DNA of 33,598 bases, taken from contig CACYAX010000014.1 of assembly GCA_902772435.1 (NCBI GenBank), positions 1-33,598 of the forward strand. Direction: 5' to 3'. Positions 2,251-22,289 of this stretch are shown here, in pieces. Position 1 is the stretch's first letter, and each line of letters opens with the position of its first letter. A program made the translations under genes and the position numbers. Under the pieces are notes generated by a model. That model saw only the letters and a program-made list of their open reading frames with translations. It was not told the origin of the DNA and searched no databases. Source of the DNA: an uncultured Coriobacteriaceae bacterium. GTDB taxonomy: Bacteria; Actinomycetota; Coriobacteriia; Coriobacteriales; Atopobiaceae.

Positions 2251-2562
2251 GGCGTCTCCTTTGCGCTTGCGCCGGCGGCCGCCATCTGTAGGCCGCCCTC
2301 TTTTCGCCCTCTAGTGTAAACCCCGCATGGGACCCACGGCATGAGGCTGCCGCAAAGGGCAAGGAAGCCCCATCTGCTGGTGAACAGGAATGCAACTAAT
2401 TTGGAATGAGGGCCACAGCACGGACACAGAGAACAGGGGCCGCAGCACACAGGCCACGACCCCCGTACGTTCAATTTTGCGGAGCGTTTGCCGCCCTCAC
2501 TCATAGGCTATCTCGCCGAGCGCGGTCCGGTGCACGCCCGCAGCCCACCCGCCACGGACAGC
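2251..2562. other. Intergenic region, no gene seen
   Basis: About 310 bases between the GatZ-like start and the stop of the RDD gene. The part nearest 2251 must carry the GatZ-like promoter; a weak minus-strand -10-like TACACT is seen at 2313-2318 without a convincing -35. I find no hairpin terminator with a T-tract for the RDD gene and no repeat. Confidence 0.4.
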
Positions 2563-3270
2563 TTACGAGTACACCCACGTACGTGCGATGCGGTCATGCA
2601 GCGACAGGTGGTAGCGGTCGAGCCACGTGGCGAAGACCGAGAATACCGAGGCAGCCATGCCCACATAACGCCAGCCCGCCATCACGATGCCGGGCAGTAC
2701 CATGTCGAAGAACTGCAGCGCGAAGCTGGTGGCCATCATGAAGAGGATCTCGAGGAAGAACATCACCGCCCAGCGGATGGTGAGGGTCTTGATGCCCGCC
2801 ACCTCGCCGTCGACCGTCACGACCTCGATGCCGGCGAGGCGCTTGCCCGGCGTCTGGCCCGTCCACACGCGCGTGGGGATGATCACGTAGTACCACCAGC
2901 TGATGGCGCAGGCCACGAGTACGATGAGCCCGACCACGGGCAGGCTGAGCCCGATCTTGGTGTAATCCGCCACGTCGTAGAGGAGCGCCCCGCCGTTCAT
3001 CCAGTAATACGGGACGACCAGCGGGATGAGGCACAGCACGCCGCACAGGATGTAGTCGGTGACGAAGGCGAGCACGCGCTGCGCGATCGGGCGCGTCATG
3101 AACCAGTCCGTGACGGAGTTGACCCAGCCAGGAACGTCTTCGTCGGTCTGCGCGTGGGACTGGCCCTTCTTCGAGCTGGTCTTTGCCTGCCCCTCGAGCT
3201 CCTCGCTCTCGACGGCCTCGCTGTACGCGGCCGCCGGCCTCTGGCCCTTCTTGCGCTTCTTCTTAGCCAT
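2563..3270 (-). CDS. RDD family membrane protein
   Basis: 235 residues. The N-terminus is lysine-rich and cytoplasmic (MAKKKRKKGQ), followed by a polar linker of about 50 residues and then three to four hydrophobic segments. These include a stretch with RVLAFVTDYILCG, a GLIVLVACAISWWYYVI helix and a MFFLEILFMMATSFALQF helix. The first helix carries the R and D typical of RDD proteins, and the tail LHDRIARTWV carries the last D. The GQTPGKRLAGIEVV motif between helices is also diagnostic. Function in the family is poorly defined; membrane or ion-related roles have been proposed. The start at 3270 is chosen because AGGAG lies just upstream; upstream in-frame ATGs lack a binding site. It is separated from the activase gene upstream by a terminator hairpin. 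Confidence 0.85.
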   Translation of the reverse strand: MAKKKRKKGQRPAAAYSEAVESEELEGQAKTSSKKGQSHAQTDEDVPGWVNSVTDWFMTRPIAQRVLAFVTDYILCGVLCLIPLVVPYYWMNGGALLYDVADYTKIGLSLPVVGLIVLVACAISWWYYVIIPTRVWTGQTPGKRLAGIEVVTVDGEVAGIKTLTIRWAVMFFLEILFMMATSFALQFFDMVLPGIVMAGWRYVGMAASVFSVFATWLDRYHLSLHDRIARTWVYS

Positions 3271-3354
3271 GTCACTCCTCATGCTGCCGCCACACGACTT
3301 CGCTGGCCGCACGGCGCCTTTCTAACGGGTTTTGCACGCACCTATAATAGCCAA

Positions 3355-3386
3355 GGACCCCGCCGAGGCACGCCTCAGCGGGGTCC
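3355..3386 (-). terminator. Hairpin terminator after the activase gene
   Basis: GGACCCCGCCGAGGC (3355-3369) pairs with GCCTCAGCGGGGTCC (3372-3386), a 15-bp stem with one mismatch and a two-base loop. It lies nine bases past the activase stop. The following minus-strand bases contain only short T runs. The same short gap must also hold the RDD gene promoter. Confidence 0.75.
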
Positions 3387-3394
3387 GTTCGCGC

Positions 3395-6300
3395 TTATTT
3401 AACGCCCGCAAGCTCCTTCACGCGCTCAAGCTCCTCCAGCTGCTCGGGGGAGAGGGTGATATCGCCATAGCTGTGCGTCGGCTTCTCGGGAATGTCGTCC
3501 TCGCCGAGGTCGAAGCCATGGCCCTCCTTCCAGCTCTCCTTGGCGACGCTGATCATGAGCTTGATGCGGTTGAGCTGGTTGACCTCGCTCGCGCCGGGGT
3601 CGAAGTCCACGGCCACGATGTTGCTCTCGGGGTGCATCTGGCGCAGGCGCTTGATGACCGACTTGCCGACCACGTGGTTGGGCAGGCAGGCAAACGGCGA
3701 GCAGCACACGATGTTGGGCGTGCCCGTCTCGATGAGCTCGATCATCTCGGCTGTGAGCAGCCAGCCCTCGCCCATCGTGTTGCAGAGCGACAGCACCTGC
3801 TCGGCCTTCTCGCCCAGCTCGTAGATGGAACCGTAGGGCTCGAAGCGCTCGCTCCTCTCGAGCATGCGGTTGATGGGCGCGCGGACGCCTTCGATGAGGG
3901 CGATGCCCGCGCGATGCGTGGCGCGCTTGGACGCCTTGCTGCCCAGCTCGTGGGCCATGTTAATCTGGTTGGTGGCGCCGAAGAGGAAGAAGTCCACCAA
4001 GCCCGGGACGTTGGCCTCGCAGCCCTCCGCCTCGATGACCTTGACCAGCTCGTTGTTGGCCGTGGGGTGGAACTTGACCAGGATCTCGCCCACCACGCCC
4101 ACGCGCGGCTTGGAGCGGTCGTTCACAAGGGGCAGCGTGTCGAAGGCGTCGATGGTGTCCTGGCAGAGCTTGTTGAAGCCACGGCGCGTCATGGTCGGGA
4201 CCTGCGTCTTGGCGCGCGACATGAAGCTGTTGTAGAGGCGGTCGGCAGAGCCCGGCACGGCCTCGTAGGGGCGCACGCGGTAGAGCACCTGCATGAGCAG
4301 GTCGCCGTAGATGAGGGCGTAGCACGCGTGCAGCAGGAGCTTGGGCTTCTTGATGTTGAAGCCCGGGTTGCTCTCGTCAAGGCCGCCTGCCAGCGAAAGC
4401 GAGATGACGGGGATCTCGGGGTGGCCGGCGTCAGCAAGGGCCTTGCGGATGAGGGCGATGTAGTTGGTGGCACGGCAGCCGCCGCCCGTCTGCGAGATGA
4501 GCGCGGCCGTGCGGCTGAGGTCGTACTTCCCGCTCTCGATGGCTGCCATGATCTGGCCGGTCACGAGGATGGACGGGTAGCAGATGTCGTTGTTCACGTA
4601 CTTGAGGCCCGTGTCCACGGCGCGATGGTCAACGGAGGGCAAAAGCACCACGTTGTAGCCCTCGACGCGCAGCAGGGCCTCCACGATCTCGAAGTGGATG
4701 GGCGCCATCTGCGGGGCGAGGATGGTGTAGCCGTCCTCCTGCATCTCCTTGGTGTAGCGCGCCTTGGGGAAGGCGGCCGAGGCAGACGCGCGCTCGGCGG
4801 GCACGCGGCGCGGATGGTCGGTCTCGGCAGCATCCTGCAGCGAGCCCTCGGCCTCGAGCTTCTTCACGAGCTCCTCATGCTGCTCCTTGAGGGCGGCCAT
4901 GAGCGAGCGCACGCGGATGCGCGCGGCGCCCAGGTTGGAGACCTCGTCAATCTTGAGCACGGTGTAGACCTTGCCGCTCGCCTCGAGGATCTCCTGCACC
5001 TGATCGGTAGTCAGGGCGTCGAGGCCACAGCCGAAGCTGTTGAGCTGGATGAGGTCGAGGTCGTTGCGGCTGGCCACGAAGCGCGCCGCACGATAGAGGC
5101 GGCTGTGGTACATCCACTGGTCGACCACGCGGATCGGGCGCTCGGGCTGCATCTTGTGGGCCACGGAGTCCTCGGTGAGCACGGCGAAGCCGAAGCCGTT
5201 CACGAGCTCGGGGATGGCATGGTTGATTTCGGGATCGTTGTGGTACGGGCGCCCGGCAAGCACGATGCCGTGGCCACCGTGCTCCTCGATCCAGGCCAGC
5301 GCCTCGTCGCCCGCGTCCTGCATGGCCTGCTTGAAGGCCACGTCGGCCTCCCAGGCCTTGTTGACGGCCGCGTCGATCTCGGCACGGGTGATGTGCTCGC
5401 CGCGCACGCGTCCGCGGCCCTCTGCCGCGTCGTGCTCGCGCTGCTCGGAGACCACCTCGTAGAGGCGGCGCTTGAGCTCGTCCTTCTTGTCGTACGGCAT
5501 GAAGGGGCAGAGGTACTCCACGTTCGGGGCGGCGAGCTCGTCCACGTTCAGCTCGAGTGCCTGCGGGTAGCTCATGACGATCGGGCAGTTGTAGTGGTTG
5601 CCCGCGGTCTCGTCCTCCTGGCGCTCCCAGCGCACGCAGGGCATCCAGATGAAGTCCGGGTCCTTCTTGAGCAGGCTCATGATGTGGCCGTGGCTGAGCT
5701 TGGCGGGATAGCACACGCTCTCGCTCGGCATCGACTCGATGCCCGCGTCGAAGGTCTTCTTGGTGGTCTGCTCGGAAAGGATGACGGCGAAGCCCAGCTC
5801 GGTGAAGAAGGCATGCCAGAAGGGGTAGTTCTCGTACATGTTGAGCGCGCGCGGGATGCCCACGGTGCCGCGCGGGGCCTCGTCGGGGCTGAGGCACGGA
5901 CGGTCGAAGAGCAGCTCGTTCTTGGTCTTGAAGAGGTTGGGGGCCTCCACCTTCGCGCGCTTGGTGCCCGCGCCCTTCTCGCAGCGGTTGCCCGTCACGA
6001 AGCGGCGGCCATGGCCGAAGTCGTTGATGGTGAGCAGGCAGTTGTTGGAGCAGCGGCCGCAGTGCGCCTTGGTGAGCTTGACCTGCAGCGTGTCGATCTC
6101 CTCGCGGGAGAGGACCGTGGAGGTGCCGTCGACGCCCGCGCGGTCACGGGCGAGCAGGGCCGCACCATAGGCGCCCATGACGCCCGCGATGTCGGGTCGG
6201 ATGACCTCGCGGCCCGAGAGCAGCTCGAACGCGCGCAGGGTCGCGTCACTCATGAAGGTGCCGCCCTGCACCACGATGTGCTTGCCCATCTCGTTGTAGT

Positions 6301-7981
6301 CGCGCAGCTTGATGACCTTGAAGAGCGCGTTCTTGATGACGGAGTAGGAGAGGCCGGCGGCCACGTCGCCGATGGTCGCGCCCTCCTTCTGGGCCTGCTT
6401 GACGCGGGAGTTCATGAACACCGTGCAGCGGCTGCCCAGGTCGACGGGACGCTCGCCCTTGACGGCGGCCTTGGCGAACTCCTGCACCGACATGCCCATG
6501 GAGTCGGCGAAGCTCGCGATGAACGAGCCGCAGCCCGAGGAGCACGCCTCGTTGAGCGAGATGTGCTCGATCACGCCGTCACGCACCTGCAGGCACTTCA
6601 TGTCCTGGCCGCCGATGTCGAGGATGAACTCCACGTCGGGCACGAAGGCCTGGGCACCGCGGAGGTGCGCCACGGTCTCGATCTCGCCCGAGTCGGCGCG
6701 CAGCGCCTCGATGAGCAGGGCCTCGCCGTAGCCCGTGGTGGTCACGTGGCCGATGGTCACGCCCTGGGGCAGGTGGTCGTAGATGTCGTCCATGATCTTG
6801 CGGGCCGTGCCGAGCACGTCGCCGTTGTTGTTGTCATACCAGGTGTAGAGGAGCTGGCCGTCCTCCCCCACCACGGCGGCCTTCATGGTCGTGGAGCCGG
6901 CGTCGATGCCGATGAAAGCACGGCCCTGGTAGTCGACGATGCGGCCGCGCTGCACGAACTCGCTGTCGTGGCGGCGGCGGAAGGCGTGGTAGTCCTCCTC
7001 GGTCTCGAAGAGCGGGTCGAGGCGCGCGACCTCGGAGCCCTGCGTGTCCTTGAGGTTGGCCAGGGCATCGATGACCTCGGCAAACGTGACGCGCTTCTCC
7101 GACTCGCCGGCGAGCGCGGCACCCGTCGCCACGAAAAGGTGGGCATTCTCGGGCACGATGCGGTGCTCTTCGTCGAGCTTCAGCGTCTCGTAGAAGCGCT
7201 TGCGGAGCTCGGAGAGGTACTGCAGCGGGCCGCCGAGGAAGGCCACGTGGCCGCGGATGGGGTGGCCGCAGGCGAGGCCCGAGACGGTCTGGTTGGCCAC
7301 GGCCTGCAGCACGGAGCACGCCACGTCAGCGGGGGCCGCGCCCTCGTTGAGCAGCGGCTGCACGTCTGACTTGGCGAACACGCCGCAGCGGCTCGCGATC
7401 GGGTAGATGTGCGTGGCCTGCTTGGCCAGCTCGTTGAGGCCCGGCGCGTCGGTCTCGAGCAGGGAGGCCATCTGGTCGATGAAGGCGCCCGTGCCGCCGG
7501 CGCAGGTGCCGTTCATGCGCTGCTCGATGCCGTTGTCGAAGTAGATGATCTTGGCGTCCTCGCCGCCGAGCTCGATGGCCACGTCAGTCTGCGGGATGAG
7601 CGTCTCGACCGCGCGCTTGGAGGCGATGACCTCCTGCACGAACTCGAGGCCGAGCCACTTGGCGAGCAGCATGCCGCCGGAACCCGTGATGGAGACGCGC
7701 ATCGAGGCGCCGTCGATCACGCGCTGGGCGCGCTCGAAGAGCTCGCGGGCCGTGGCGCGGATGTCGGTGTGGTGGCGCTCGTAGTTGGCATACACCAGGT
7801 TGTTGTTGGCGTCGATGACCGCCAGCTTGACCGTGGTGGAGCCCACGTCGATGCCGAGACGTAGCTGCGCGTGGCGGAAGTCGACCGCGCCAGCGGGGCT
7901 CAGCTCGGCGCCGTCCTGGCGCAGCTTGATCGCATGACGGGCAGCGCTCTGGGCGCGCTGGGAGTCCGTGGTCCTAACCAT
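3395..7981 (-). CDS. Acyl-CoA dehydratase activase, giant BadF/BcrA-type with DUF2229
   Basis: A 1,528-residue protein of the 2-hydroxyglutaryl-CoA dehydratase activator superfamily. Two ASKHA ATPase modules are visible. The first starts near residue 42 (IDVGSTTVK) with NGTCAGGTGAF near 155. The second starts near 355 (GIDAGSTTMK) with EACSSGCGSF near 477. The single cysteines in these motifs bind a [4Fe-4S] cluster between subunits in studied activases. A cysteine cluster HCGRCSNNC lies near 640. DUF2229 begins near 700 and a 2-hydroxyacyl-CoA dehydratase-like region follows from about 890. Such multidomain activases are common in anaerobes, but their dehydratase partner and substrate are mostly unknown. 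AAGGAG precedes the start. The first 8 bases overlap the end of the TetR gene, which implies translational coupling. No separate dehydratase subunits are nearby. Confidence 0.9.
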   Translation of the reverse strand: MVRTTDSQRAQSAARHAIKLRQDGAELSPAGAVDFRHAQLRLGIDVGSTTVKLAVIDANNNLVYANYERHHTDIRATARELFERAQRVIDGASMRVSITGSGGMLLAKWLGLEFVQEVIASKRAVETLIPQTDVAIELGGEDAKIIYFDNGIEQRMNGTCAGGTGAFIDQMASLLETDAPGLNELAKQATHIYPIASRCGVFAKSDVQPLLNEGAAPADVACSVLQAVANQTVSGLACGHPIRGHVAFLGGPLQYLSELRKRFYETLKLDEEHRIVPENAHLFVATGAALAGESEKRVTFAEVIDALANLKDTQGSEVARLDPLFETEEDYHAFRRRHDSEFVQRGRIVDYQGRAFIGIDAGSTTMKAAVVGEDGQLLYTWYDNNNGDVLGTARKIMDDIYDHLPQGVTIGHVTTTGYGEALLIEALRADSGEIETVAHLRGAQAFVPDVEFILDIGGQDMKCLQVRDGVIEHISLNEACSSGCGSFIASFADSMGMSVQEFAKAAVKGERPVDLGSRCTVFMNSRVKQAQKEGATIGDVAAGLSYSVIKNALFKVIKLRDYNEMGKHIVVQGGTFMSDATLRAFELLSGREVIRPDIAGVMGAYGAALLARDRAGVDGTSTVLSREEIDTLQVKLTKAHCGRCSNNCLLTINDFGHGRRFVTGNRCEKGAGTKRAKVEAPNLFKTKNELLFDRPCLSPDEAPRGTVGIPRALNMYENYPFWHAFFTELGFAVILSEQTTKKTFDAGIESMPSESVCYPAKLSHGHIMSLLKKDPDFIWMPCVRWERQEDETAGNHYNCPIVMSYPQALELNVDELAAPNVEYLCPFMPYDKKDELKRRLYEVVSEQREHDAAEGRGRVRGEHITRAEIDAAVNKAWEADVAFKQAMQDAGDEALAWIEEHGGHGIVLAGRPYHNDPEINHAIPELVNGFGFAVLTEDSVAHKMQPERPIRVVDQWMYHSRLYRAARFVASRNDLDLIQLNSFGCGLDALTTDQVQEILEASGKVYTVLKIDEVSNLGAARIRVRSLMAALKEQHEELVKKLEAEGSLQDAAETDHPRRVPAERASASAAFPKARYTKEMQEDGYTILAPQMAPIHFEIVEALLRVEGYNVVLLPSVDHRAVDTGLKYVNNDICYPSILVTGQIMAAIESGKYDLSRTAALISQTGGGCRATNYIALIRKALADAGHPEIPVISLSLAGGLDESNPGFNIKKPKLLLHACYALIYGDLLMQVLYRVRPYEAVPGSADRLYNSFMSRAKTQVPTMTRRGFNKLCQDTIDAFDTLPLVNDRSKPRVGVVGEILVKFHPTANNELVKVIEAEGCEANVPGLVDFFLFGATNQINMAHELGSKASKRATHRAGIALIEGVRAPINRMLERSERFEPYGSIYELGEKAEQVLSLCNTMGEGWLLTAEMIELIETGTPNIVCCSPFACLPNHVVGKSVIKRLRQMHPESNIVAVDFDPGASEVNQLNRIKLMISVAKESWKEGHGFDLGEDDIPEKPTHSYGDITLSPEQLEELERVKELAGVK

Positions 7982-8681
7982 TGTTGTTCTCCTTGTACAT
8001 GGCCAAAGCCTGAGGTCCCATGGTGGTGATGTCGAGCCCGATGGGCTTGCCGTAGAGGTCGCCGGGGCGTACGAACATGAGCGCCGTCATGAGGCATGCC
8101 ATGACCTCCACGCTCTCGTGCATGCCCGTGGTGAGCCACCTGACGACCACGCCCACCTCGGCAGATATGGCAAACGTGAGGTAATAATCGAGCAGTGCGC
8201 TCGCGATCGAGCCCGTGGGGGCCACGAAGCCCTCCGCCGCGCGGCTGGCGGCCACCTCGCGCACCATCTGCATGAGGCGGCTCTGGAACGCGGGGTCACC
8301 ACCATCGCCGAGCAGGGCCGGCAGGTAGCTCGCGCGCTCCACGAAGTAGCTGAGCACGTCGATGGCCCCAGGGCAGGGCTGGAAGGCGTGGATCGCCTCG
8401 TCGAGCTCCTCAAGCTTGGTCTGGCTGATTACCTGCACGAGGGGACGCAGCTCCGCGATGGTCTCCTCCTCGATGCTCGTCACGAGCCCGGGGATGTCGC
8501 GGTAATGGGAGTAGAACGTGCGGCGCGTGACGTTGGCGCGGTCTGAGACCGCGGTGACGGTCACCTGCGAGAGGTCGCCCGTGGCCTCGATCTCGGCCGC
8601 GAGCGCGTCGCGCAGGGCCGCGCGCGTGCGCAGGGCGCGTCGGTCGGTTGACGCAGTCGTCGTCTGTACGGTACTCGGCAT
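7974..8681 (-). CDS. TetR/AcrR family transcriptional regulator
   Basis: 235 residues. The N-terminal helix-turn-helix is seen as LRDALAAEIEATGDLSQVTV, then AVSDRANVTRRTFYSHYRD at about residues 45-65. The C-terminal ligand-binding region is unassigned, with long helices around residues 90-220. The start at 8681 is chosen from its AAGGAC site and the position of the DNA-binding domain; the frame stays open far upstream, but only as antisense of the ATPase gene. The stop overlaps the ATG of the activase gene by 8 bases (AATGGTTAG). The two genes are therefore one transcript, and the regulator plausibly controls the activase as well as itself. The effector is unknown. Confidence 0.9.
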   Translation of the reverse strand: MPSTVQTTTASTDRRALRTRAALRDALAAEIEATGDLSQVTVTAVSDRANVTRRTFYSHYRDIPGLVTSIEEETIAELRPLVQVISQTKLEELDEAIHAFQPCPGAIDVLSYFVERASYLPALLGDGGDPAFQSRLMQMVREVAASRAAEGFVAPTGSIASALLDYYLTFAISAEVGVVVRWLTTGMHESVEVMACLMTALMFVRPGDLYGKPIGLDITTMGPQALAMYKENNNG

Positions 8682-11473: not shown

Positions 11474-12271
11474 ATGGACCTCACCACCTGGCCTGGGTAC
11501 GTCCCCGGCTTCAGCCAAGACCACAACCTGCGCGAACTCGGCGGGCTGCCCACCATGGACGGCCGTCACGTGCGCCGCGGGCTGCTCTTCCGCGGCAGCG
11601 CGCTCACGGAGCTGGATGACGTGGAGCGCGTGCGCCTCGACGAGCTGGGCCTCCGTTTCGTGCTCGACCTGCGCGCAAAGGGAGAGGCGGCGGGCAACCC
11701 CGAGCGCGTGCCCGAGGGGGCCGAGTACCTGCGCCTCGGCGGCATGCGCTACGAGGACGGCAGCGAGGTCGACTTCTCCCCCGAGGGCATCGAGCGGTTC
11801 CAGAGAGAGGCCGGCCTCGACGGCCCCTTCAAGCCGGCGGACGACTTCTTCTCGAGGCTCTACATATCCATGCTGTTTGACAATCCCGCGACCCATGCAC
11901 TCTGGGAGCGCTTCGAGCAGCACGTCGCGCCGCTCTTCTTCCACTGCACCGCAGGCAAGGACCGCACGGGCATGAGCGCCGTGGTGCTTGAGCTGGCGCT
12001 CGGCGTCACCCGCGAGGCCATGCTCGAGGACTTCATGATCACCAACCAGTACCGCGAGTTCGTGATAGAGCGCGCGGTCGCAAGCCTGTCCGACGGCAGC
12101 CCCGCCGCCGAGGAGCACGTGCGCAAGGCATACGGGGTGCAGATCGAGAACGTGCAATCGGCGCTTGCCGCGGTGGACGAGCGCTTCCCTTCGCCTGAGG
12201 CATACGTGCAGGCGGAGTATGGTGTGAGCCCTGACGAGCTTGCAGCGCTGCGGGACTTCTATCTCGAGTAG
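11474..12271 (+). CDS. Tyrosine-protein phosphatase, DSP/PTP-like
   Basis: 265 residues. The catalytic P-loop HCTAGKDRTG lies near residue 160, with the nucleophilic Cys and invariant Arg present. This HCxxGKDRTG form with an N-terminal NLRELGGL motif near residue 16 is the signature of the Y_phosphatase3 family. Related proteins such as mycobacterial PtpB act on phosphotyrosine or phosphoinositides, but many bacterial members have unknown substrates. No signal peptide is seen, so it is cytosolic. AAGGAG four bases before the ATG at 11474 fixes the start and excludes the longer frame. It is a single-gene unit, with a hairpin at 12380-12419 downstream. Confidence 0.88.
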   Translation: MDLTTWPGYVPGFSQDHNLRELGGLPTMDGRHVRRGLLFRGSALTELDDVERVRLDELGLRFVLDLRAKGEAAGNPERVPEGAEYLRLGGMRYEDGSEVDFSPEGIERFQREAGLDGPFKPADDFFSRLYISMLFDNPATHALWERFEQHVAPLFFHCTAGKDRTGMSAVVLELALGVTREAMLEDFMITNQYREFVIERAVASLSDGSPAAEEHVRKAYGVQIENVQSALAAVDERFPSPEAYVQAEYGVSPDELAALRDFYLE

Positions 12272-12361
12272 CGCTGCCGCTGCGGCGTGCGGGTGGCCGG
12301 TGTTGGCGCATCGGCGTGCGGATGACGCCGGCGCTGCCGCATCGGCGTGCGGATGACGCCG
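12272..12361. repeat. Imperfect ~30-bp tandem repeat, three copies
   Basis: The 23-bp sequence that begins GCATCGGCGTGCGG is identical at 12308-12330 and 12339-12361. A diverged copy lies at about 12280-12301. The first copy begins directly at the phosphatase stop codon, so the repeat forms its 3' untranslated region. Confidence 0.75.
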
Positions 12362-13766: not shown

Positions 13767-13899
13767 ACTGGTGCACAGAACCGACGGATGTTTGCACCAA
13801 CTGGCACGTAGGACCGACGGATGTTTGCACCAACTGGCACGTAGGACCGTCGGATGTTTGCACCAACTGGTGCATAGGACCGTCGGATGTTTGCACCAA
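13767..13899. repeat. 33-bp tandem repeat array, four units, after galM
   Basis: The core GGATGTTTGCACCA recurs with exact 33-bp spacing; the CGACGG/CGTCGG anchors lie at 13782, 13815, 13848 and 13881. The array starts directly after the galM TAA. A second array of the same unit in opposite orientation lies at 15471-15620, after murB. Because 33 is a multiple of three, short repeat-rich reading frames appear across it, but these are not credible proteins. Bases 13900-13990 hold no gene. Confidence 0.9.
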
Positions 13900-15470: not shown

Positions 15471-15620
15471 ACTGGTGCAAACATCCGACGGTCCTTTGTG
15501 CCAGTTGGTGCAAACATCCGACGGTTCTTTGTACCAGTTGGTGCAAACATCCGACGGTCCTTTGTGCCAGTCTTTGTGCCAGTTGGTGCAAACATCCGAC
15601 GGTCCTTTGTGCCAGTTGGT
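15471..15620. repeat. 33-bp tandem repeat array, four units, after murB
   Basis: The TCCGACGGT anchors lie at 15484, 15517, 15550 and 15595. Spacing is 33, 33 and 45, the last because of a 12-bp duplication (TCTTTGTGCCAG). The unit is the reverse complement of the one at 13767-13899, with a few differences. Read on the minus strand the array begins immediately after the murB stop codon. Each unit can form a short hairpin, GGTGCAAA with TTTGTGCC, using two G-U pairs. Confidence 0.9.
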
Positions 15621-16543: not shown

Positions 16544-16722
16544 GTTCCTCTCCTCCATGGCGATGCGTGTTGCCTAGAACAGAAGTGTAGCGCATGTGGC
16601 CCCTGCACGCTGAAGCGCCATCGTTGTCCCATGGGTCCCGTGGAGCCGGCGTCGTGCCGCAAAGCTTTGCCGCACGAACACTTGCGCGACGTGCGTAGAA
16701 TGGCTAAGCTCAGACGCACATA

Positions 16723-16846
16723 GTTTCAGGGCGGGGTGCAATTCCCCACTGGCGGTATCGGGTGAGGCCCGTAAGTCCGCGAACCGCGCGAGCGGCCGAT
16801 CTGGTGCGATTCCAGAACCAACGGTTACAGTCCGGATGGAAGAAAC
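16723..16846 (+). promoter_or_regulatory. FMN riboswitch (RFN element)
   Basis: The conserved RFN blocks are all present in order: TTTCAGGGCGGGGTGCAATT, CCCCACTGGCGGTA, AGTCCGCGA, CTGGTGCGATTCCAGAACC, then CGGTTACAGTCCGGATG and GAAGAAAC. The closing stem pairs GTTTC (16723-16727) with GAAAC (16842-16846). The ribosome binding site CGGAGG starts at 16846, so the closing stem abuts it. There is no room for a terminator before the ATG at 16857, so control is most likely at translation initiation. A -10-like TAGAAT lies at 16696-16701. High FMN should lower expression of the transport operon. Confidence 0.95.
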
Positions 16847-16856
16847 GGAGGCCATC

Positions 16857-17432: not shown

Positions 17433-19460
17433 GTGAGCGCTGGCCACGTCATAAACACGCAGGTCGCAGGCCCTGACATGCAGGCGGGGAGCAACTCTTC
17501 CGCCGCATGCCAGGGCTCTTCATGCTCGCAGAGCAAAACCGCGGTGCACGGACTTACCGGCGCCTGCGGCACGGTTGCGGGTGCAGTTTGCGCGGGCGAC
17601 ACGGCTGCGGGCGCAGTTTGCGCGGGACACGACCCTCTCATCGCGCTGGACGACGTGACGTTGCGCTACGGCGACGACGTGACCGCACTGAGCCACGTGA
17701 ACCTCGCGGTCGCGTCTGGCGAGCGCATCTGCGTGCTCGGCGCGAACGGCTCGGGCAAGTCGACGCTCGCCTCGGTCATCGCGGGCCTCCTCGCGCCGGA
17801 CGAGGGCACCGTCTCCCTCGTGGGACGGACCGTCTGCAGGGACGGGCAGCCCGACTTCGAGGCGTACGGCCATGCGCGGCGCAAGATCGGCCTCGTCTTC
17901 CAGAACCCGGACGACCAGATCGTGACCTCCATCGTGGAGGAGGACGTGGCGTTCGGCCCCGAGAACCTCTGCCTGCCCCCCGACGAGATCGGCCGGCGTG
18001 TGGAGCGCGAGCTCGCGCGCGTGGCCATGGGCGATTACGCCCGCTCCGACCCTTCGCGCCTCTCCGGCGGCCAGAAGCAGCGCGTGGCCATCGCGGGAGC
18101 GCTCGCCATGGAGCCGGAAGTGCTCGTGCTCGACGAGCCAGGCGCCCTGCTTGACGTGCGCGGACGTCGCGGCATCATGCGCGTGATGGCCGGCCTGCGC
18201 GCGCAGGGCACCACCATCATCCACATCACGCACTTCATGGAGGAGGCCCTGGCGGCAGACCGCGTGCTCGTCATGGACCACGGCCGCATCATGTTTGACG
18301 GCGGGCCGCCGGAGGTCTTCAGCCACTGCGACGAGCTGCTTGCGCTCGGCCTGGAACTGCCCTTCACCGCCCGGCTCTCGGCAGAGCTGCGCGTGCACGG
18401 TTTCGACGTGCCGTGGACCTGCGATGACGAGGAGCTGCGCGAGGCGCTTGCGCCGCAGTGTGCTTGCACGCGGGCGGGACATGCGTCTGCTGCGGAAGCG
18501 GATGGCCTCCCGCAGGAGAGGGTCCCCTCTGATCAAACAGGACGAACGACCACGACGGGCGGGGCGCCTCAGGGCAATCCCGCCTGCACGGTGGAACGCG
18601 TCTCGTACAGCTACAACGACGATGGCGGGCGCCGTGCGCTCGAGGACATCAGCTTCGGCGTTTCCCGTGGCAGCTCCGTCGCCATCGTGGGACAGACGGG
18701 GTCGGGCAAGTCGACCCTCGTGCGCCTGCTCTGCGCCCTCGAGGTGCCCGATGCGGGGCGCATCGTGGTGGACGGCATCGACACCGCGCGCAAGCGCGAC
18801 CGCAGGCTCCTCCACGGGCGGATCGGCTACGTGATGCAGCATCCCGAGCGCCAGCTCTTCGCCGAGACGGTCCTCGAGGACGTTGCCTACGGGCCCCGCA
18901 ACATGGGCCTTTCCCCTGACGAGGTGCGCGCTCGCTGCGCCCGCGCCCTGGAGCTCGTGGGGCTCACGGGTCGCGAGGATGCCTCGCCCTTCACCCTTTC
19001 TGGTGGCCAGCAGCGCCTTTGCGCCATCGCGGGCGTGCTTGCCATGGAGCCGAAGGTGCTCGTGCTCGACGAACCCATGGCGGGGCTTGACCCCCACGGA
19101 CGCGCCCAGCTCGAACAGATCCTGAGCGACGTGCTCGCTGCGGGCACGACCTCGATCCGCGTGACGCACTCGATGGATGACGCGGCCAAGGCAGACCAGG
19201 TCATCGTCCTTGCGCAGGCGCGCCTCCTCATGCGCGGCACGCCCGAGGAGGTCTATGCGCCGACACACGAGGCTGAGCTCCATCGCGCTGGCCTGGGTCT
19301 TCCCGCCGCGACGCGTTGGGCGCTTGCCCTGGGGCTGGATGCTGCTCCGCTCACCATGAGCGCGCTGGTACGCGAGCTGTCGCGCACGCGCGCGGTGGCT
19401 GCGCGGCTCGGATCGGGGCTGTCGGACGCTGCGGAAGGGGGCGACGAGCATGGCGCTTAA
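17433..19460 (+). CDS. ECF transporter ATPase, two fused nucleotide-binding domains
   Basis: 675 residues carrying two complete ABC ATPase domains, equivalent to EcfA1 plus EcfA2. Domain 1: Walker A GANGSGKST near 106, QNPDDQ, LSGGQKQR near 210, Walker B VLVLDEP near 230, His in ITHFMEE. Domain 2: GQTGSGKST near 420, MQHPERQ, LSGGQQR near 522, VLVLDEPMAGLD near 545, VTHSMDD. It drives riboflavin uptake by ATP hydrolysis on the cytoplasmic face. The GTG start, with GAGG five bases before it, follows the ribU stop without a gap. The first 60 residues form an odd extension rich in Ala, Gly and Cys, part of which is a 30-bp DNA duplication (17571-17630). An ATG at 17478 is an alternative start. 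Confidence 0.92.
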   Translation: MSAGHVINTQVAGPDMQAGSNSSAACQGSSCSQSKTAVHGLTGACGTVAGAVCAGDTAAGAVCAGHDPLIALDDVTLRYGDDVTALSHVNLAVASGERICVLGANGSGKSTLASVIAGLLAPDEGTVSLVGRTVCRDGQPDFEAYGHARRKIGLVFQNPDDQIVTSIVEEDVAFGPENLCLPPDEIGRRVERELARVAMGDYARSDPSRLSGGQKQRVAIAGALAMEPEVLVLDEPGALLDVRGRRGIMRVMAGLRAQGTTIIHITHFMEEALAADRVLVMDHGRIMFDGGPPEVFSHCDELLALGLELPFTARLSAELRVHGFDVPWTCDDEELREALAPQCACTRAGHASAAEADGLPQERVPSDQTGRTTTTGGAPQGNPACTVERVSYSYNDDGGRRALEDISFGVSRGSSVAIVGQTGSGKSTLVRLLCALEVPDAGRIVVDGIDTARKRDRRLLHGRIGYVMQHPERQLFAETVLEDVAYGPRNMGLSPDEVRARCARALELVGLTGREDASPFTLSGGQQRLCAIAGVLAMEPKVLVLDEPMAGLDPHGRAQLEQILSDVLAAGTTSIRVTHSMDDAAKADQVIVLAQARLLMRGTPEEVYAPTHEAELHRAGLGLPAATRWALALGLDAAPLTMSALVRELSRTRAVAARLGSGLSDAAEGGDEHGA

Positions 19461-20253
19461 GCTCTCGATCGGCCAGTACTGGCCCGGAACGTCGCTGCTC
19501 CACCGACTCGACCCCCGTGCGAAGGTCGCTTGCGCGATCCTCATGATGGTCTCTGTGTTCTTCATTCGCAGCCTCGCGCAGCTGGGCTTTGCCTGGGCAT
19601 GCGCCCTCGCGCTCGTGCTGGTGTCGCGCGTGCCGCTGCGCAAGGTGCTCAGCTCCATCAAGCCCATCGTGTTCATGCTCACGCTGCTCAGCGTCTGCAA
19701 CCTGCTGCTCGTCAAGACCGGCGACGTGCTCGTGCAGTTTGGACCGCTCGTGATAACTACGGGGAGCGCGTGGGCGGCGCTGCTGTATCCGCTGAGGCTC
19801 GTGGTCGCCGTCATCGTGGCGGCACTTCTGCTGCTCACGACCACGCCTACGGAGCTCACTGACGCCTTTGACGCGGGGCTCGCACCGCTCGCGCGCTTTG
19901 GACTTCCCGCCCATGAGCTCGCGATGGTGTTCTCGCTCATGCTGCGCTTCATCCCCACGATTGCCGACGAGACGCAGGCGATTCTCGACGCGCAGACCTC
20001 CCGCGGCGGCGCGCTGGCCGAGGGGTCGCCGTTGCGCCGCGTGAAGGCCGTCGTGCCCGTGGTGGTTGCGCTGCTCGCCAGCTCGACGAGGCACGCGAAC
20101 AACCTGTCGCGGGCGCTCGACGCGCGTTGCTACGTGGGTGGGGCTGCGCGGAGCCACTGGCACCCGCTCCACATGGAGCGGCGCGACTGGGTGGCGCTCG
20201 CCATGACGGCGGCGTATGTGGGGTGTTTGCTCGCACTGTCGCTGGTGGGGTAA
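19450..20253 (+). CDS. ecfT: ECF transporter transmembrane component EcfT
   Basis: 267 residues with several membrane helices, for example KVACAILMMVSVFFI near 25 and LVVAVIVAALLLLTT near 118. The cytosolic coupling region carries two short Arg motifs that contact the ATPases. Here they read DAQTSRGGAL near 178 and LDARCYVGG near 223; the second has Cys where the usual motif has Gly. The gene overlaps the end of the ATPase gene by 11 bases, so translation is coupled. With ribU and the fused ATPase it forms a self-contained riboflavin transporter. The 94/95-bp repeat array begins 10 bases after its stop codon. Confidence 0.92.
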   Translation: MALKLSIGQYWPGTSLLHRLDPRAKVACAILMMVSVFFIRSLAQLGFAWACALALVLVSRVPLRKVLSSIKPIVFMLTLLSVCNLLLVKTGDVLVQFGPLVITTGSAWAALLYPLRLVVAVIVAALLLLTTTPTELTDAFDAGLAPLARFGLPAHELAMVFSLMLRFIPTIADETQAILDAQTSRGGALAEGSPLRRVKAVVPVVVALLASSTRHANNLSRALDARCYVGGAARSHWHPLHMERRDWVALAMTAAYVGCLLALSLVG

Positions 20254-20262
20254 GGCGCGGGG

Positions 20263-21395
20263 CTTCATACGAGGTGGCGCATCCGGGTGTTTCGGGGCCG
20301 TGGGGGTGCCTCGTATGAAGGCCGGCCTGCTGCCAGCTGGGCAAACGCTCCGCGCGCTTCATACGACCAGCCCTTTCCCAGGCATTTCGGGGCAGTAGGG
20401 CCGCCTCGTATGAAGGCCGGCCAGCTGCTAACTGGGCAAACGCTCCGCGCGCTTCATACGACACGACGTATTCGGACGTTTCGGGGCTGTTGGGCCGCCT
20501 CGTATGAAGTCGGGCCAACCGCCAGCTGGGGAAACGCGGCGAGACCTTCATACGACACGGCATTGTCAGGGCGTTTCGGGGCCGTTGGGCCACCTCGTAT
20601 GAAGGTCGGCACGCCGCCAGCTGGGGAAACGCAGTGAGAGCTTCATACGACCAGCCCTTTCCCAGGCATTTCGGGGCAGTAGGGCCGCCTCGTATGAAGT
20701 CGTGCCAACCACCAACTGGGCAAACGCTCCGCGCGCTTCATACGACACGACGTATTCGGGCGTTTCGGGACCGTTGGGCCGCCCCGTATGAAGGTCGGCG
20801 CACTGCCAGCTGGGGAAACGCAGTGAGGGCTTCATACGACTCGGCATTGTCAGGGCGTTTCGGGACCGTTGGGCCACCTCGTATGAAGGTCGGCACGCCG
20901 CCAGCTGGGGAAACGCAGTGAGAGCTTCATACGACTCACCCTTTCTCAGGCATTTCGGGGCTGTTGGGCCGCCTCGTATGAAGTCGTGCCAACCACCAAC
21001 TGGGCAAACGCGTCGCGCACTTCATACGACACGACGTATTCCGGCGTTTCGGGGCCGTTGGGCCGCCTCGTATGAAGCCGTGCCAACCGCCAGCTGGGCA
21101 AACGCGGCGGGACCTTCATACGACACGGCATTGTCAGGGTGTTTCGGGGCCGCAAGGGCACCTCGTATGAAGGCCAGCCAGCTGCTAACTGCGGAAACGC
21201 GTCGCACACTTCATACGACTCGGCCTTTCCCGTGCATTTTGGGCCGACGGAGCCGCCTCGTATGAAGTCGCGCCCGCCGCCAGCTGAGCAAACGCGTCGC
21301 GCACTTCATATGACTCGGCATTTCGCGGGAGATTCGGGCCCTCGGGGCCACCTCGTATGAAGTCGCGCCCGCCGTCCTCCCGGCAAACCCCCAGC
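20263..21395. repeat. 94/95-bp repeat array, 12 copies with A-B-C higher-order order
   Basis: CGTATGAAG recurs at 20312, 20407, 20501, 20596, 20691, 20785, 20880, 20975, 21069, 21164, 21259 and 21354 (spacing 95, 94, 95 repeated). Each unit has TCGTATGAAG followed about 36 bases later by its complement CTTCATACGA, often with CCAGCTGG between them. The linker to the next unit comes in three types that cycle in order: A (CCCTTTCCCAGGCATTTCGG), B (CACGACGTATTCGG) and C (CGGCATTGTCAGGG). This gives a 284-bp higher-order unit, three full cycles, then decaying copies. The unit is not a multiple of three and no gene is credible. Bases 21396-21506 hold the SDR leader. Confidence 0.95.
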
Positions 21396-21506: not shown

Positions 21507-22289
21507 ATGAAAGACATCGCACTTGTTACCGGCGCCTCCAGCGGACTCGGCCTCGAATTCGCCAAGCTCTTCGCCCAGGACGGCTACGACCTCGTGCTCG
21601 TGGCGCGCAGCGCCGACAAGCTCGACGCACTCGCCCACGAACTCGACCAGGTCTACGACGTGACCGCATGGACCGTCGCGGCAGACCTGTCCACGCCCGA
21701 AGGGCTCGCCACGCTCACGAGCTTCACCAGGTCGTCCGGCCTCGTGATCAGCGCCCTCGTGAACAACGCCGGCTTTGGCGACTGCGCCGACTTCGCACAG
21801 GCCGACATCGCCAAGCTCGACCAGATGGTGGAGCTCAACATCCGCGCGCTCATGGACCTCAGCTACTACTACCTCGGCGACATGCTCGAGCGCAACAGCG
21901 GCCTCATCCTCAACGTCGCAAGCGTCGCGGGATTCGAGCCCGGCCCCGGCATGGCAACGTATTTTGCCAGCAAGGCCTTCGTGCTCTCGTTCAGCGAGGC
22001 GCTCGCCGAGGAGCTTCGCGGCACGGGCATTCACGTGACGGCGCTCTGCCCCGGCACCACGGCGACCAAGTTCTGGAACGTCGCCGAGGCGGGGACGCTC
22101 TCCATGCTGCGCCAGGCCGTGATGGCAAAGCCCGAGGACGTGGCGGCGTATGGCTACGAGAGCCTCAAGCGCGGCCGCGTGGTCGCGGTCCCGGGCATCG
22201 GCAACAAGCTCATGGTGAACGCGCCGCGCTTCGTTCCGCGCGCCCTCGTGCGCCGCATCGTGCGCGAGCTGCTGCGCAAGAACGGGTAG
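21507..22289 (+). CDS. Short-chain dehydrogenase/reductase, classical SDR
   Basis: 260 residues with the classical SDR pattern: cofactor motif TGASSGLG at 8-15, NNAGFG near 87, and the catalytic YFASK near 153 with a serine upstream in NVASVAG. An Arg in the second strand region (VARSADKL) suggests NADP(H) preference. The overall sequence resembles the DltE/YqjQ-like cytosolic SDR group, whose substrates are mostly unknown. AGAAAGGGAC precedes the ATG. It is a single-gene unit between the repeat array and a shared terminator. Confidence 0.9.
   Translation: MKDIALVTGASSGLGLEFAKLFAQDGYDLVLVARSADKLDALAHELDQVYDVTAWTVAADLSTPEGLATLTSFTRSSGLVISALVNNAGFGDCADFAQADIAKLDQMVELNIRALMDLSYYYLGDMLERNSGLILNVASVAGFEPGPGMATYFASKAFVLSFSEALAEELRGTGIHVTALCPGTTATKFWNVAEAGTLSMLRQAVMAKPEDVAAYGYESLKRGRVVAVPGIGNKLMVNAPRFVPRALVRRIVRELLRKNG

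Follow-up and report, generated by a model that had tools for sequence, protein, structure and literature searches.

An intergenic array of inverted 10-bp arms in a coriobacterial genome shares its linker core with unrelated palindromes across the order

The REP sequences and BIMEs of enterobacteria and pseudomonads are short palindromic, mostly extragenic units that alternate in orientation with regular spacers, occur in tandem and are genome-specific (PMC2817692, PMC3116915). The repeat described here, which lies in a window of 33,598 nucleotides (the whole stretch of DNA analysed) from an uncultured Coriobacteriaceae bacterium of the order Coriobacteriales, shares with them palindromic units that are set at regular intervals and change orientation from one to the next (a layout as in PMC2817692). 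However, its arms are 10 bp long and have no GTAG, whereas a REP consists of a GTAG-like tag by an imperfect palindrome of 20-40 bp. Few repeat families, to our knowledge, have an identified mobiliser, as REP has in RAYT, and no account of the present repeats in the order came up in a limited literature search.

Architecture of the array

The array occupies positions 20263-21362 of the window, between the genes for CbiQ/EcfT, the transmembrane component of an ECF transporter (19450-20253, plus strand), and for a short-chain dehydrogenase (21507-22289, plus strand), both of which flank the repeat and lie outside it. It contains twelve copies that start at 20263, ten bases on from the EcfT stop codon (20251-20253), as a first, sequence-only reading had stated; the last arm ends at 21362. 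The same reading had extended it to 21395, which was not borne out, as no arm was found in 21363-21395. The 24 arms, 10 bp each (CTTCATACGA/TCGTATGAAG), alternate in orientation and are separated by gaps that alternate between 38 or 39 nt and 36 nt, so that the whole array amounts to a series of 12 palindromic elements E (CTTCATACGA-N38/39-TCGTATGAAG) with a 36-nt linker at each of the 11 junctions. The distance of about 36 bases that had been placed inside each copy is thus the distance between copies (11 of 11); within a copy the arms stand 38 or 39 nt apart. The spacer measures 38 nt in E1 (20263-20320), E3 (20452-20509), E6 (20736-20793) and E9 (21020-21077), and 39 nt in E2 (20357-20415), E4 (20546-20604), E5 (20641-20699), E7 (20830-20888), E8 (20925-20983), E10 (21114-21172), E11 (21209-21267) and E12 (21304-21362), the last of the array. 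Two of the 24 arms carry one mismatch each, namely the right arm of E6 (CCGTATGAAG at 20784) and the left arm of E12 (CTTCATATGA at 21304). A core, GCGTTTCCGCAGGTCGC, is present in nearly every 36-nt gap, and the core linkers, all assigned to the minus strand, are located at 20321-20356 (with GCGTTTGCCCAGCTGGC on that strand), 20416-20451, 20510-20545, 20605-20640, 20700-20735, 20794-20829, 20889-20924, 20984-21019, 21078-21113, 21173-21208 and 21268-21303.

Successive units are spaced by 94, 95, 94, 95, 95, 94, 95, 95, 94, 95 and 95 bp, with a mean period of 94.6 bp. Mean identity between units of the window array is 0.83 at lag 3 and 0.76-0.77 at lags 1 and 2. The lag-3 identity reaches 0.83-0.98 for units 2-9, and the first and last units show no clear excess. 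The A-B-C order of linkers proposed earlier is therefore real, but it is not strict over the whole array, being clear in units 2-9 and less so at both ends. Tandem Repeats Finder (TRF) scored the 284-bp period (1432) above the 95-bp period (1007), recovering the super-unit of the earlier reading, which can be seen in the central part of the array. That the array grew as a trimer was duplicated is likewise supported for units 2-9; the other arrays of the genome have no lag-3 excess, which makes it particular to the window array. The exact number of copies in the window is uncertain because the assembly is a draft of 312 contigs in which several arrays lie at contig ends and one (L028) contains a run of Ns.

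Other features of the window lie apart from the array. An FMN riboswitch (16718-16851; Rfam, 103.9 bits), the only family found by the Rfam scan of the window, overlaps the beginning of the gene predicted to encode an ECF riboflavin S component, after which come ATPase and then EcfT genes, a riboflavin transporter operon with the array at its end. Other short tandem repeats occur at 566-690 (49-bp period) and 12271-12361 (31-bp period).

Dispersal in the genome and lack of the arms, beyond chance, in the other species searched

The array turned out to be one of many, which goes beyond the sequence-only reading. The genome contains 81 exact arm pairs, whereas the reversed-pattern control gave 0, which places the window array far beyond chance. 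Repeat units were found in at least 15 contigs, the fifteenth (C303) by the core alone, and 13 further contig stretches around arrays were read besides the window. Counting all arrays, linkers are 36 nt long in 61 of 63 cases and 35 nt in two, and spacers measure 39 nt (53), 38 nt (17) or 40 nt (1). Array size ranges from 1 to 12 elements. The ends are defined and non-random: in 23 of the 25 located away from contig edges, the array stops at the outer arm of an element (CTTCATACGA at left ends or TCGTATGAAG at right ends). According to simple gene predictions, the arrays are intergenic and lie in mixed gene contexts with variable orientation relative to the genes, and one sits between divergent genes. 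A 344-aa open frame without a Pfam match was seen between two arrays of this repeat (L036, 447-1478), and in L027 an IS110-family transposase (7523-8608) lies 2.3 kb away from an array.

Perfect arms account for 127 of the 142 in all arrays. Identity between arrays is 98.2% for the arms, 69% for the core and 43% for the spacers, where chance would give 30% at that composition; the arm value is somewhat inflated by a detection that allowed up to 2 mismatches, and the regular spacing leaves few sites for lost arms. The arms are absent from 17 other species of the genus, where a single match with 3 mismatches looks like chance. A search of about 85,000 species genomes returned two unrelated single matches, approximately the number expected by chance. 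The members of the genus that are closest are too distant for orthologous empty sites to be recognised (the flanking dehydrogenase has 48% identity at best).

Among the functions proposed by the sequence-only reading, an array that binds a protein sequence-specifically fits best, on account of arms 98% identical between arrays as opposed to spacers at 43%. An architectural version of it would have the host maintain the array, with a dimeric or oligomeric protein that sits on the regularly spaced 10-bp arms and organises or supercoils the chromosome, in the way that gyrase or IHF act on the BIMEs of E. coli. The near-invariance of the arms in otherwise diverged arrays speaks for it, as do the near-palindromic arm itself (TCRTAYGA, seen directly), a mean period that equals 9.0 turns of B-DNA (10.5 bp per turn) and an orientation that is not fixed relative to genes. 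However, the arms occur in one species of the 18 in the genus, arrays vary in size from a single element to 12, no candidate protein has come forward and the tolerant detection makes the arms look more conserved than they are. Overall, maintenance by the host for such a purpose seems possible but rather doubtful.

The core in related genomes and the question of pairing

With up to 1 mismatch allowed, a search of 394 genomes of the order besides the window genome gave about 230 core matches, compared with about 38 for the reversed control. The matches cluster in 14 of these genomes, which have 4 to 19 each, and for several of the 14 the sister species have one match at most. Across a sample of the phylum, no genome outside the order reached 4 core matches. 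In the relatives, the core is the centre of long inverted repeats whose arms are unrelated to those of the window and specific to each genome, and 40 of 61 core matches have flanking arms that pair better than every shuffle. In the genus g54, the loop that holds the core is about 32-37 nt long and is enclosed by arms of 20-30 bp, of which there are at least three kinds. Two genomes (G282 and G284) have several unrelated arm families around the same core, and three more (G342, G244 and G180) have arm families of their own. The 36-nt linkers of the window share with other genomes of the order a core that lies within unrelated palindromes, a feature that the sequence-only reading had not noticed. 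The outer arm is 65 nt from the core in G180 and 67 nt in an E-linker-E of the window genome, and it is this geometry, together with the core, that would place the window genome's repeat in the same family. None of four arm families had a match in IMG/VR, and a viral origin was rejected on that ground.

With an element of g54 (type 2) as query, each of six genomes of that genus returned 19-44 matches, a figure that exceeds the number of copies since matches to flanking DNA and to the second strand of the palindrome were counted. Four sister species lack this element at one orthologous site. The edges of that empty site are ragged, and no clean target-site duplication was seen at it, the single one examined. 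The arm matches of G180 included no recognisable autonomous partner sharing the same ends. In L081, a gene that reads as Fic-like (2474-3442) lies between two type-1 hairpins in the same orientation, and this pair of hairpins recurs in G160 at nearly equal spacing.

The folded form could be followed best in G180, where 16 copies were read, each 149 nt from arm to arm (148 in one) and about 200 bp in full length. Changes on both sides of a pair were found in 19 of 50 pairs, more than in all 500 shuffles, and 93.1% of cells pair, compared with 38-46% when the alignment is slid; the structure was derived from the same alignment, which favours it. Because the two-sided changes exceed all the shuffles, the folded form of G180 is kept, by selection or by templated repair. 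In the window genome, only 1 of 11 mutated arm hairpins is compensated, and sequence past the arms pairs no better with its own mate than with a shuffled one. That 10 of the 11 remain uncompensated and that pairing stops at the arms suggests that the arms resemble sequence-specific binding sites more than RNA stems. For the window array, with arm compensation nearly absent in its genome, hairpin formation is putative. Linker positions 17 and 23, within the core, gave a covariation signal (z 4.1) that was set aside as unconvincing, most of it being contributed by a single group of arrays.

These results bear on the proposal that the array is transcribed and acts as serial hairpins, be it a structured 3′ RNA, a terminator, a sponge or a string of processed small RNAs. 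The compensatory changes of G180 argue for it, together with A- and T-tracts in some relatives' stems that resemble bidirectional terminators (seen directly) and the start of the array 10 bases past a stop codon. It is weakened by the mixed orientation of the core to neighbouring genes, including the array between divergent genes, by the uncompensated arms and shuffle-level pairing in the window genome, by a fold of the full array that mixes pairing partners and by the lack of an Rfam family, the scan in relatives giving tRNA and chance matches only. We consider this explanation distinctly unlikely. Coding was rejected as well, given that the 94/95-bp period is not divisible by three; in G180 elements five of the six frames are interrupted by stops in most copies and the remaining frame in one third, with no 3-base periodicity. 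One frame of the core reads AFPQVA with some third-position variation, a hint at coding.

Mobilisation and comparison with known systems

The layout of the array, with alternating orientation and two alternating spacers, is that of a BIME, and one RAYT-type Y1 transposase was found in the genome, which could mean a classical REP/BIME mobilised by RAYT (TnpA_REP). However, the RAYT-type gene (L078/L079) is bracketed by a different, 33-bp repeat and has no arms nearby; in the relatives, most RAYT-type genes have other palindromes at their flanks and none has core hairpins there; and no GTAG-like tag was found by eye at a fixed position beside the arms. RAYT mobilisation was therefore rejected as far as tested and is left with very little likelihood, a second RAYT being one that a draft 91.65% complete could miss. 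Since the defining link to a RAYT is missing, filing the repeat as REP/BIME is wrong on present evidence; describing its organisation as BIME-like is right. The 33-bp repeat (ACCGACGGATGTTTGCACCAACTGGCAC...), which forms inverted clusters at 13780-13899 and 15473-15616 of the window, either side of a DUF711 gene, is probably the REP of the RAYT-type enzyme, because the same repeat flanks the only RAYT found. Within it, GTTTGCACCAACTGGC resembles a variant of the core of the window array. Many of the relatives' RAYT-type genes (L137-L154) lie between short palindromes, TGAGACAAAGGGACAGTCCCTTTGTCTCA for example, which may represent a REP family of these genomes.

What is established is a pair of inverted 10-bp arms, a core linker of nearly fixed 36-nt length, intergenic arrays and an order-wide family of palindromes marked by the core with genome-specific arms. 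The reading that we favour, and judge reasonably probable, is that of dispersed non-coding palindromic elements, REP/BIME- or MITE-like, recognised at the core together with the arms by an enzyme acting in trans, amplified in tandem in this species and with arms kept constant by a factor. Non-autonomous repeats would have been spread by an enzyme that recognises core and arms, probably in single-stranded form or as an extruded hairpin, and local duplication of E-linker units (of a trimer in the window array) would then have built the arrays. The almost complete lack of compensation for arm mutations indicates that what is preserved in the arms is their sequence and not their pairing, and this points to a factor that binds DNA; a sequence-specific factor acting on the arms would leave them invariant and let the spacers drift. 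Against this reading count that no mobilising enzyme was found and no autonomous copy was recognised among the arm matches of G180, that the one empty site is ragged and lacks a clean target-site duplication, that arm compensation is nearly absent in the window genome, and that the link of this genome's repeat to the others depends on core and geometry. A further possibility, which we hold with little confidence, is a recombination or transposition system of the order that recognises the hairpin apex GCGTTTCCGCAGGTCGC and tolerates exchange of the stem, each genome having its own arm families and the arrays being amplification products. That the hairpins are attC-like recombination sites marking cassette boundaries is scarcely credible: two same-oriented hairpins surround the Fic-like gene and an open frame lies between two arrays, but most hairpins and arrays flank no gene and the attC consensus boxes were not seen.

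The favoured reading of trans-mobilised elements gains its interest from a palindromic family that, with one shared centre and genome-specific arms, spans one bacterial order. Core-rich genomes (G155-G158, G160, G162, G180, G244, G275, G278, G282, G284, G289 and G342) with core-free sister species offer a handle on the mobiliser, and the family would also account for the repeat-broken assemblies of these genomes. In comparison with REP/BIME, the repeat has a conserved core in every second spacer, and it does not flank the RAYT found, whereas RAYT-linked REPs flank their cognate RAYT as two inverted copies. It resembles MITEs in being small, non-coding and bounded by inverted repeats, with many dispersed copies, a patchy distribution and presence or absence at an orthologous site. 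In contrast to a MITE family, the core family is conserved at the centre and its arms vary by genome, and no target-site duplication was seen (at one ragged empty site). Integron attC sites are likewise imperfect palindromes with strand-specific features, foldable as single strands, but they are conserved at the base of the hairpin, the core family at the apex, and cassettes are mostly lacking here. Finally, CsrB-type sponge RNAs also repeat hairpins that share a loop motif, whereas the core repeats, known here from DNA alone, are mixed in orientation and dispersed over many loci.
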